A stretch of DNA of 64,000 bases from Macrobrachium rosenbergii (lineage: Eukaryota; Arthropoda; Malacostraca; Decapoda; Palaemonidae): NCBI RefSeq assembly GCF_040412425.1, contig NC_089788.1:70185220-70249219 (forward strand). The letters run 5' to 3'. The notes beneath the pieces are model-generated. The model was not told where the DNA came from. It did no database searches and saw only the letters and a program-made list of their open reading frames with translations. Positions 49,235 through 59,550 of the stretch are shown one piece after another. Made by a program: the position numbers and the translations under genes. The first letter of the stretch is position 1, and each line of letters begins with the position of its first letter.

Positions 49235-49325
49235 GCGGTAGGTATTGTCGGGATGAAAGACATGGGTAGTGAGATGTAAGATATGGACAACATCTCACTA
49301 CCTTGTCTTTCACGCCGCCGATGCT
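49235..49325 (+). ncRNA. mir-71: mir-71 microRNA precursor
   Basis: This is the hairpin precursor of the conserved invertebrate microRNA miR-71, a post-transcriptional repressor loaded into Argonaute. The mature 5' arm is 49254-49276, beginning TGAAAGACATGGGTAG and ending GAGATG. To my recollection it matches arthropod miR-71 over all 23 bases. The 3' arm, 49291-49314 (CATCTCACTACC...TTTCACG), is complementary to it except at a short bulge around the GGG. The 14-base loop is TAAGATATGGACAA. A lower stem of GTCGG against CCGA can form. It lies 926 bases after a PPP4R1 exon on the same strand and starts a microRNA cluster. Drosophila lacks miR-71, while most other arthropods keep it next to mir-2, which supports the call. 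Confidence 0.96.
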
Positions 49326-50390
49326 GCTTTCCCCGACGCCGACTCCAGTCCAGCGTCGGCTTCTCGTACAGCAAGGTGCAACTTCCGGGTATGGTAGAGG
49401 AGACCCTTTTTGGAGAATGTCATTAGCATGCTAGAGTATTTCTCATCTTTCCGAAACAATACACTTTGTCGTTATGGTCCGCCGAGTTTTTAAAAGGGTG
49501 TCCCCTAGAAGACAAATGTGTTAAATGGTTTTGATACTTGTGCAATTAACAGGTAAACTTTTCAGGAATTTAGAGACCTGGATTTTTTCGCTTGTATTTG
49601 CATTGAACGAAAAGTTCCATTTTCAATCGTTATCAACCTTTTGTTTGGTCTGTGGTTTTCGTTCTTAAAAAAAAAAAAAAATCGTAGCTATAGTACCCAG
49701 GCGGGAAAGACTAATCAGCACTGTGCTGTCATTAAATGCCTTGTTACGTTTGTTTTAATTTCATTTTTGGTTCTTTTTATGTTTATTTCGAAATTTATGG
49801 AATTAGATCTGTAATCCAGGTCATACACCTGTTAATTTCAGCTCATACAAACTAAATAAATTAGCCTCTTAGTTTATGATGGTTTTGCAGTCGGTAATCG
49901 ATTTTTCCCCCCAATTACAAATGACCCCCTTTTCCCTGATTGATAAGAGCGAAAAGCCTCTAGTATCAATATATAACTTGCATATATCAAGAGTAACTAA
50001 CCAAGATTGACCTGATCTGTATCGTGCATATTACTTCATTCAGATGTCTTGTATGTGAAATTGTTTCTGTAAAGCAGTGTTTCATGGTCTTTAATATCTT
50101 CAAGTTGCTACCATACCTCAATTTAATCTTTCCTTATTTCACACTTCTGATTATTAGGTATTCATTGACTACCACTATATTTATTTATCAATTTTTATGT
50201 TGATTTCATTTTCACTTCACAACCAATTCAATCCCTTATTTGAGATTCGGTCCAGGCTCTAATGACTATTATATAAGAAGACGCCTTTTTGCAAGATCCC
50301 CGGACGACGAGACACCTTGGGACATGAGGAGGCCCGAGGACAGCCCCGTCGCTCCCGCCGGGTGACGACGGCCCCTGCGGTGTTTGTGTG

Positions 50391-50485
50391 AACGCGTGGG
50401 GCACTGGCATCAAACTGGTTTGTCATAGCTCGCTGATCGCTATACTATCACAGCCAGCTTTGATGAGCAGGGCCCCACGACCGCA
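50391..50485 (+). ncRNA. mir-2: mir-2 precursor, copy 1
   Basis: This is a microRNA hairpin of the mir-2 family. The mature 3' arm at 50446-50468 begins TATCACAGCCAGC and ends GATGAGC, identical to classic insect miR-2a. The 5' arm at 50408-50429 (CATCAAACTGGTTTGTCATA) pairs with it with a few bulges. A strong lower stem forms between CGTGGGGC (50395-50402) and GCCCCACG (50472-50479). The seed ATCACAG places it in the mir-2/mir-13 family, which in Drosophila is reported to target pro-apoptotic genes. It is the first mir-2 copy, about 1.2 kb after mir-71, on the strand of the host gene. A CTG/TTG repeat follows at 50530-50568. An open frame across the hairpin is coincidental. Confidence 0.96.
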
Positions 50486-50689
50486 CGCTGCTTCTACAGG
50501 CGAAGATTACTACTACAGGCCTCGTGTGCCGCTGCTGCTGCTGCTGTTGCTGCTGTTGCTGCTGTTGCAGGGACGAACCGCCCCTACGTCACCACTGCTG
50601 TTGCTGACACTGGCGTCTGTGGAGATATAGATAGGGCCGTCGCTGATATTATTTCCAGTGTATGGGTGCCAGTGCGTCACCCAGGCATT

Positions 50690-56590: not shown

Positions 56591-57489
56591 GGTCTGCGTT
56601 TGAGAGAGAGAGAGAGAGTGGAGGATGGCATGGGGTGTGGGGGAGGGGGAGACAGCCTCGTGGATGACTTTTAAGATGATGTCAAGCAAGTCAACAAGTG
56701 GAAATGGGAAAGGCGGAAGAGGTGAGGTGGAGGAGGGGGTGTTTCAGAACGACCTGCTCTTTGAGGGGAGGGGGCAAAAGAGAGAGAGAGAGGTTCTGTT
56801 GCTTAAAGGGTCATTGGGTCAGAAATATTTCTTTCTCCTTGTGCTCTCTGTGGGTACCAGCCTCTCTCTCTATCTCTCTCTCTCTGTCTCTCTGCCCTGA
56901 CACCATACAGTGTTTGTTGATTTAGAAAGTTGTTCAGTATGTATGTTTACAGAAGTATTATATCTCTAGTCAGTCGGAGGAGAACGTTTCATGTGCTCAT
57001 TCGTACTCTGATTTTCCACCCATTTCCAAATATAACCGTTTTCCTTTATTTTTTATTGTGTTAAGTAATTATAGGGATACATGCTCAAAATTTTATGAGC
57101 CACACATGATTGCAAATGAGTTGTAGGTATGTGAATAATTTGCATGGTTTTTTTCAAGTAAGGGTAATTGATGTGCGACGGTGTATCGAGGATTGTAATA
57201 AATTTATGCTTATGAAAATTAATGTAATTGTAAGTTCAATTTAAATTTGTCTTTTTACATTTTGTCACTTTATAAGACGTAAACCTGTCCATTTCATTGG
57301 CAGTTGTCTTGTGTATATGTAGGGGGGAAGAGGTAGAATAAAACAGAAGTAGGGTTATAGGAGACGTTGGTTTGTCTCCTCTCCTGTGCCCGAGTCCGCG
57401 ACACCTAGAGAGCGAAGAGAGCTTGATACTGACGAAAAGAGATGGAGAGAGGAAGAGAGACAGAGAGAGGAGAGAGAGAGAGAAAGAGA

Positions 57490-57582
57490 GAGTGCGATTC
57501 CTGTCTCACAAAGTGGTTGTTGTATGTGTTTTTTACCTGACAATCATATCACAGCCAGCTTTGATGAGCGAGGACCCGGCAC
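57490..57582 (+). ncRNA. mir-2: mir-2 precursor, copy 4
   Basis: This is a fourth mir-2 hairpin. The mature 3' arm at 57547-57569 is identical to that of copy 1 (TATCACAGCCAGC start, GATGAGC end). The 5' arm at 57504-57526 (TCTCACAAAGTGGTTGTTGT start) pairs with it and resembles the star strand of insect mir-2. CCT and GTGC on the 5' side pair with AGG and GCAC on the 3' side in the lower stem. The loop (TGTTTTTTACCTGACAATCA) is unlike those of the other copies. A purine-rich GA tract ends about 10 bases upstream of the precursor. It lies about 1 kb after copy 3, on the strand of the host gene. Confidence 0.95.
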
Positions 57583-59461
57583 GCCACCGCCCCTGCAGCC
57601 TACCTACCTACCTCCCTTACGCCGACTCCGGCGGTGTACTACTATTAATACGACTTGTACTGTTATTACGACTTAGGTTTCCAAACAAGTGCGATTCACT
57701 CATTGGGCAGCGAGAAATACGTAGTACCGGTTGTCAGAACTGCTGCCACTATCATAGCTGCTGTCTTCGGCAGCATTACATCAAAGCGTAATTTATTGCA
57801 GCCTTTTCTTTTTAGGTCTTTTATTTGACAACTAATTAACCTGATAGGTGAATTTTATACACTGCTGTTCTATTAATGTTTTATTAAATTGGCCTGTGAT
57901 CTTAATGAGTATTGGTTTCTTTAAAATGAAAAGCAACTATTGGATACTATGCCGTCGTCGTAATGAGTTTATTATAAAGAGATTGCTTGCATTGCTTATT
58001 GTGATACGTTTGTTTTTATTCTGCTGCCACTTGCAATTCATTGAGCACGGGTAGAACGCCCCATTTCCTTTGCAGATTGTCTTGCTACCCAGCATTGAAT
58101 AAATAGGATCACAATAAACTCATTTGATGATGCTTACACACACTGGCGCATTCATCAAATGAATGGACTTTCTTCATAAGTAGATGTTAATCAGGTGTGC
58201 CGGAGAATAGTGCTTTGTTGTTGTCACTTTTTACGATATTGAAAAGCTCCCAAGTCGTGCCAGATGTTTGGGAGACTTGCTCAGTGCTTGTTGTTTTTAT
58301 TTATGCGTAGCATACACAGAAATCCAATAGTATTGAGTGGGAGGTTAATGATTTGAGTACAAAATGGTCTGTTCTGGCAGCAGTACTCCCATTTTTGATG
58401 TGAGGATGAAGTGAATGGTAGATTTGATTTTTTTTTTTTTTTCGTCTTCTTCAACCTACCGAAACAAGTTTCAAGTCATATTATTGCAAAGTTGAAATTT
58501 TAGCGCAAAGCAGCATTTTCTTTAGTTGCTGGATCCCAGCATTCTGTTTGCCCAAACCATGTGTAGATGATTTAGGGATAAAGTCATCATTTGACTACAT
58601 AGGATAGGCTTCTTCAGATGTTCCACGCACAGTTTTACAGATTTCAAAGAAAAAAAAAAGCTCTTAATCTACTCAAAATTTACATACTTCAGGACACATG
58701 CTCCTTGGTAGTTATCGAATTCTCACTGTCATCATAGGAAAAGTGGCAAGGTAATTCCTCATTGTGCACAGAAATCTTCCTACGAATTTATGATGGTCGT
58801 GTGTGTGTGTGTTTGTTTGCGAGGGTCTCAGTGTTTGTACAGTTATCTTCTGCTAACATCATTTTATGGATTTATGTAAGATCTGCACCTTTTTTTTTTG
58901 CAGGTATTAATAGCTCACGTGATTGATATCTTCTTAAAAATCGGCAACACCTAGTCACATTAATGTACAGATATACAATGAACTGCTGTAGTTTTCGTAC
59001 GTAATTTTGTTAACGTGGTCTCATTCATGTGCAGATTTTCAACTGTGATCACGTGTTTATCGCTTTAGCTCTGTCGACAGGCCTTACAGTTAGTTCCCAG
59101 CCTGTATCTCCCCCACATCACCCTATCCAACGGGAGCACAGTAGCTGTTGCGTCTCTACCGTCGTAGCCACTTGACTTTGGTATTGATATTTTCTTCGTG
59201 TGTATGAAGCGGTCCCCCTTTTTTCCCTCCCGTCGGCCAAGTGAGCAGATGGTGGTCTAAATAGCGGTGCCGAAAAATGACCCGTATGATTATACGAAAA
59301 TGTATATTTTTATATAAACTTTGATATATACTGGTACTTTTATCACTCGCACGTGAGAGTAATTAAGTTTCAATCTTTTATAAATGTTACCCCGAGCACC
59401 CCCTAATATTACTGTGGATGACCTTCGTGGTAGAAAGCCCAGCAGCCAACAGCTACTTTGG
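57583..59461. other. No feature recognised (intron)
   Basis: AT-rich sequence between mir-2 copies 4 and 5. T runs lie at 58428-58442 and 58890-58899. Confidence 0.5.
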
Positions 59462-59550
59462 TGTGGCGTCGCTTATCAGAGTGGATGTGATGTGTGGATT
59501 GCATTAAATCATATCACAGCCAGCTTTGATGAGCGACGACGCAGCTTCTC
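59462..59550 (+). ncRNA. mir-2: mir-2 precursor, copy 5
   Basis: This is the fifth and last mir-2 hairpin seen. The mature 3' arm at 59512-59534 is identical to copies 1 and 4. The 5' arm at 59471-59493 (GCTTATCAGAGTGGATGTGATG core) pairs with it, and the lower stem is the strongest of the set: GGCGTCGCT (59466-59474) against AGCGACGACGC. The loop TGTGGATTGCATTAAATCA is unique. It lies 960 bases before the acceptor of the next PPP4R1 exon. No further copy of the seed-bearing motif was seen between here and 64000 or upstream of mir-71. Confidence 0.95.

Follow-up and report, generated by a model that had tools for sequence, protein, structure and literature searches.

A mir-71/mir-2 microRNA cluster inside a PPP4R1 intron of Macrobrachium rosenbergii

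Does the mir-71/mir-2 microRNA cluster keep a fixed address in animal genomes, and is the gene that surrounds it also the source of its transcripts? These questions are raised by a 64-kb stretch of the Macrobrachium rosenbergii genome (hereafter the window; C48:70185220-70249219 of a 3.18-Gb, 78-contig genome), in which one mir-71 and five mir-2/mir-13 hairpins were confirmed to lie, in sense orientation, inside one intron of PPP4R1. The locus is a real conserved microRNA cluster in an ancestral host gene, ordinary in kind and useful as an arthropod case. What is new here is the presence of mir-71 directly behind the identical PPP4R1 donor splice site in 18 database proteins, one of which also reaches into mir-2.

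The mir-71 hairpin occupies 49248-49319 on the + strand (5p arm from 49254, 3p arm 49293-49314) and scored 70.8 bits with the Rfam model RF00832, for which the curated cut-off is 50 bits; its fold had a z-score of -9.4. A match of 57.8 bits was also obtained on the - strand, because the hairpin is nearly symmetrical. The five mir-2 hairpins, all on the + strand, were scored with RF00047 (cut-off, 45.5 bits). Hairpin 4 (57502-57573; mature 3p arm 57547-57569; 57.0 bits; z -6.2) and hairpin 5 (59469-59538; mature 3p arm 59512-59534; 61.8 bits; z -7.5) exceeded the cut-off. Scores below it were given by hairpin 1 (50403-50472; mature 3p arm 50446-50468; 37.9 bits, E 0.0003; z -5.8), hairpin 2 (56137-56205; mature 3p arm 56179-56201; 42.7 bits, E 1.9e-5; z -2.9) and hairpin 3 (56516-56580; mature 3p arm 56555-56577; 34.1 bits, E 0.0029; z -7.4). 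Each fold was compared with 200 shuffles; one shuffle was as stable as the weakest fold (56127-56214), and none was as stable as any of the other five. Between 19 and 22 of the 23 mature-arm bases were paired across the six hairpins (19-21 for the five mir-2 members). The 3p mature arm starts with UAUCACAGCC in all five mir-2 hairpins, and the window has five exact copies of the mir-2 core, TATCACAGCC, each on the + strand and each within a mir-2 hairpin. When one mismatch was allowed, eight matches to TATCACAGCC were counted against 2.85 expected, a number reached in 2 of 100 shuffles. CNNC is a microRNA processing signal, and it was found 15-19 nt past the 3p end in 6/6 hairpins, compared with a rate of 0.19 at random intron positions; two of the six also have a UG motif 14 nt upstream, which was not used as evidence. 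All 24 bases from 49254 are identical to miR-71-5p of Daphnia magna as given in PMC6828783. The third and fourth of the six hairpins (mir-2 hairpins 2 and 3, the latter with a divergent 3' half) were judged 13-like by visual comparison with the mir-13 sequences in PMC9170749, giving the member order 71/2/13/13/2/2, all sense, over a span stretched to 10.3 kb. This order is the same as that of the arthropod scaffold in PMC9170749.

The host gene was recognized from four coding exons on the + strand of the window, which have AG/GT borders, match decapod PPP4R1 in tblastn and join into a single open frame of 189 codons: 37439-37545 (107 nt, QMVARS...SSND), 47399-47541 (143 nt, EPAVRTELMEQVP...DPNNQ), 48181-48327 (147 nt, VRKTSQ...KTEAVA, ending in phase 0) and 60494-60664 (171 nt, LMAKMAP...TEEVL). 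The last two flank the cluster. The intron between them (48328-60493, + strand; 12,166 bases) is a phase-0, GT-AG intron with GT at 48328 and AG at 60492-60493, and the reading frame stays open once the flanking exons are joined; di- and trinucleotide repeats make up 603 of its bases. Identity to a Penaeus vannamei protein (P0001) was 92% over the piece encoded at 47399-47541 and 95% over that at 60494-60664. Named relatives among the matches listed were from Penaeus vannamei (84%, covering 86% of the query), Procambarus clarkii (PPP4R1-like; 87% over 70%) and Petrolisthes cinctipes (85% over 53%). Past the end of the window, at 8.8 and 9.7 kb, the + strand carries two more PPP4R1 exons (locus L017, 8784-8939 and from 9694), with a weaker match in another downstream locus (L018), so the gene runs on past the mir-71/mir-2 intron. 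Neither the window nor the 20 kb before it gave a convincing match to the N-terminal PPP4R1 exons. When single exons were searched against Pfam, the HEAT matches were weak, as was one unrelated hit; in the PDB, PP2A scaffold subunits were the best sequence matches and designed armadillo proteins ranked below them. The gene was instead named through its named relatives; homologous exons and canonical splice sites identify the host as PPP4R1. The first-pass annotation, which had proposed this host name and one mir-71 plus five mir-2 sense hairpins in the single intron between 48327 and 60494, is thus upheld by the Rfam matches, the exon borders and the decapod relatives, and the precursor folding that it had called for gave z-scores of -2.9 to -9.4 for the six hairpins. 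Within the same intron, a 56-nt exon-like stretch (49150-49205; AG before, GT after) ends 48 nt upstream of the mir-71 5p arm; if it were spliced in, the PPP4R1 frame would stop right after it, as with a poison exon, and we keep it as a curiosity.

Whether other animals carry the cluster in the homologous intron was examined with predicted proteins that overrun exon ends, the tails of which are translated intron. The sample comprised 182 PPP4R1-related database proteins from three protein searches, one of which contributes 120 of its 150 matches (among the matches listed), and read-through of the donor was found by text pattern. The exact donor used in M. rosenbergii (...EAVA or similar) is read through in 92 of the 182, the following residues being V-S in 77, V-R in 11, V-G in 2 and V-N in 2; another 40 proteins proceed to the following exon, and the remaining 50, in which the site is missing or neither pattern applies, were left uncounted. 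The 92 include Cebus and Acipenser, so the position of the intron seems older than the protostomes. Read-through of the window donor itself (48328-48429) yields a 33-residue tail, and a Procambarus PPP4R1-like isoform X2 (P0012) ends by a similar read-through. The latter was first taken as a special truncated isoform, an idea that was dropped; its end was treated as a prediction effect, because donor read-through is common in databases.

In 18 of the 92 read-through proteins the tail encodes mir-71-5p, as KDMGSEM in 12 and as a terminal ERHG in 6, the latter because the stop is the UAG inside mir-71. In all 18, mir-71 starts 76-142 nt past the donor, compared with 926 nt in the window, and all 18 fall among the 46 tails of at least 26 residues. 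They contain 15 distinct exon peptides. The 3p arm was sought in 13 KDMGSEM proteins (the 12 with the exon, and P0179 without it) and was present with 1-4 mismatches in 20, over all codon choices, in 12; the thirteenth, P0139, ends early. Six of these 12 matches were equalled by none of 300 shuffles and those in P0036, P0097 and P0126 by 2 to 4; the matches in P0103 (9 of 300), P0082 (18) and P0142 (29) are weak when taken alone. A mir-2-3p stretch with no mismatch in 23 was found in P0126 (with the exon) and P0179 (without it), 175 and 199 nt from the mir-71 start, where no one of 100 shuffles did better than 5 and 4 mismatches, respectively; among the 18 read-through proteins with mir-71, P0126 is the one that extends into mir-2. 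A small tree including 16 of the 18 placed six of them in a clade (support 100/99) and the window with Penaeus and Procambarus (100/100), and its deeper forks were mostly weak; we take the 18 to be planktonic crustaceans, an unproven assignment. As mir-71 lies behind the same splice site, the cluster in those animals sits in the homologous intron and not just in the same gene. This is a new hint, drawn from database proteins, that the very same PPP4R1 intron may be conserved. An exact mir-71 scan gave no match in the viral_contigs or genome_contigs collections, and no PPP4R1 locus was found in viral_contigs.

We consider it probable that the window holds the ancestral protostome mir-71/mir-2 cluster at its original site, a phase-0 intron of PPP4R1, here in a large decapod genome, and that the cluster is transcribed with its host. 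The hairpins would be transcribed as part of the PPP4R1 pre-mRNA, Drosha would cut them from the intron and the flanking exons would be spliced into PPP4R1 mRNA. The products would mature to miR-71-5p (seed GAAAGAC) and miR-2/13-3p (seed AUCACAG) and would repress mRNAs, and a second promoter within the intron may add to the output. Transcription of the cluster from PPP4R1, as proposed in the first-pass annotation, is plausible, and host transcription is favoured because of the sense orientation, the co-expression reported in oyster and the short distance from donor to mir-71 in compact genomes. On this evidence, we lean towards PPP4R1 transcription as the main source of the microRNAs.

Several observations weigh against this picture. 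Three of the five mir-2 hairpins fall under the RF00047 cut-off, at 34.1-42.7 bits with E-values of 0.0029 or better. The rate of CNNC in each hairpin's own flanks is 0.15-0.46 (15-19 nt), and narrowing the distance to 15-18 nt leaves the motif in 5/6 hairpins, against 0.165; because the range was chosen after the sites had been seen, we treat the CNNC result as no more than supportive. The first-pass annotation had also asked whether synteny holds in other genomes: it does to the extent that mir-71 lies behind the same donor in 18 of 92 read-through proteins, and it does not extend to 28 of the 46 tails of at least 26 residues, which show no mir-71. Those 28 include vertebrates, such as Acipenser, in which mir-71 is not expected. 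In the other tails mir-71 may have been lost, may lie farther off or may lie in the third frame, where it is invisible because that frame stops at the first base of mir-71. As for transcription, the 926 nt between donor and mir-71 in the window could accommodate a promoter. The two families lie in separate introns of C. elegans ppfr-1 with promoters of their own, microRNA expression there overlaps that of the host only partly and small-RNA data favour the mir-71 promoter (PMC2835999).

The alternative that survives best is that the cluster lies within the PPP4R1 intron and is driven mainly by one or more intronic promoters of its own, host and microRNAs being expressed independently. It agrees with the space upstream of mir-71 in the window and with C. 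elegans, where intron sequence upstream of mir-71 drives GFP and mir-2, in another ppfr-1 intron, has its own promoter (PMC2835999), and where deletion of the first three exons of ppfr-1 did not mimic loss of mir-71 (PMC3410857). It is harder to reconcile with oyster, in which the mir-2 members track PPP4R1 expression (largest r = 0.93; PMC4138081), and with the 18 database cases, in which only 76-142 nt separate the exon from mir-71, leaving scant room for a promoter between them, so that any separate promoter there would need to be placed within the coding exon or ahead of it. The evidence from relatives conflicts, oyster speaking for and C. elegans against transcription from the host, and we regard predominant control by intronic promoters as possible yet rather doubtful.

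Less probable still is a loss of processing in some of the mir-2 hairpins, which would then be decaying copies; the likeliest candidates are those at 56127-56214 or 50393-50482. Besides the three scores under the Rfam cut-off and the z-score of just -2.9 at 56127, this idea draws on the existence of decayed copies of pieces of the PPP4R1 intron elsewhere in the genome. A genome search for mir-71, in which 60 of 396,361 first-look candidates were scored, found only the window locus (on both strands) above the cut-off, and five sub-threshold places, all on contig C67 (1.92 Mb). The C67 copies (L003-L013) are rearranged, form several units and lie on both strands, around 727-735 kb, 801-814 kb and also 867-876 kb. 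What they contain of the window intron and its border is part of exon C, 48427-49073, mir-71 (2-3 repeats per unit), the two regions of mir-13 type, the last mir-2 hairpin and 60032-60228, with identities of about 69-91%. Four C67 copies of the last mir-2 hairpin exceed the Rfam cut-off (51.6 bits each). They are mutually identical at 62/62 bases with flanks that differ by 3-8%, and each differs from the window at 6/62 positions, with the mir-2 seed altered; an intact mir-2 core was found in none of the six C67 stretches scanned. The C67 copies read as an amplified pseudo-array of decayed PPP4R1-intron pieces, and gene conversion also would explain the identical hairpins. The window hairpins, against this, keep the exact 10-base 5' core in 5/5 with 19-21 of 23 mature bases paired, and CNNC stands at the expected place in all five, which makes decay an improbable account of them.

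That the shared address is a coincidence, the cluster having entered PPP4R1 separately in several lineages, is very unlikely: the cluster is mobile, with mir-2 in spitz and mir-13 in CG7033 in Drosophila (PMC4138081), but mir-71 immediately follows the same splice site in 18 proteins with their 15 distinct exon peptides, six of the 18 group together, with strong support, outside the decapods, and the host gene is the same in oyster and C. elegans (PMC4138081, PMC3410857, PMC2835999).

Some further features of the window were recorded. One C67 copy (L003) matches the window at about 47908-48256 (83.5%) and at 12819-13025 (72%), while 47811-48129 is matched at 73% by C67:1502259-1502558; these matches mark a dispersed repeat just upstream of exon 48181. 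The open frame at 45616-46008 (+ strand) looks like a putative reverse-transcriptase tail of retrotransposon origin. At 7718-7934 a 41-base unit is repeated in tandem about five times (92% match), open in two - strand frames, and di- and trinucleotide repeats, many of them CT/GA runs, account for about 7% of all bases in the window.

The address of the cluster looks very old. We hold it slightly better than an even chance that host splicing and microRNA cropping have been coupled at this intron for more than half a billion years. Drosophila, which lost mir-71 and moved mir-2, would be one exception, and C. elegans, in which either mir-71 or mir-2 must then have changed intron, another. A microRNA cluster would then have been bound to one intron over very long times, raising the question of what couples regulation of PP4 to the output of miR-71 and miR-2. 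Reading intron sequence from over-extended predicted proteins is, moreover, a cheap test of microRNA host synteny that works without genomes.

Among known systems, the cluster of Blattella germanica has the same membership, with mir-71 and five mir-2, and a likewise stretched spacing that its authors tied to transposable elements (PMC5121899); the available part of that paper gives no host gene. The scaffold with the same order as in the window was described for four arthropods in PMC9170749, the main text of which names no host gene and mentions neither an intron nor a phosphatase. Our literature search, in which most items were judged by title and the start of the abstract, found no paper naming PPP4R1 as an arthropod host. 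The first-pass annotation had left open whether this host was already described; it was, in oyster and C. elegans, and outside arthropods as far as our searches show (PMC4138081, PMC3410857, PMC2835999). In C. elegans, mir-71 lies in a large intron of ppfr-1 (PMC3410857), the product of which is listed with the nearest orthologs of PP4 regulatory subunits (PMC6952425). Both families are thus inside the PPP4R1 ortholog and are listed as same-strand intronic microRNAs (PMC3410857, PMC2835999), but, unlike in the window, there is a single mir-2, in an intron other than that of mir-71, each with its own promoter (PMC2835999). In the oyster Crassostrea gigas, six mir-2 lie within a PPP4R1 intron and are co-expressed with the gene (PMC4138081), whereas mir-71 and five mir-2 are found here; the host gene is the same, the main text of PMC4138081 does not mention mir-71 and its available part does not state which intron is occupied. 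Its authors noted mir-2 in ppfr-1 of C. elegans, the PPP4R1 ortholog, and proposed the location as possibly ancestral. With the decapod cluster and the 18 proteins described above, this proposal, built on two animals, becomes testable at the level of a single intron.

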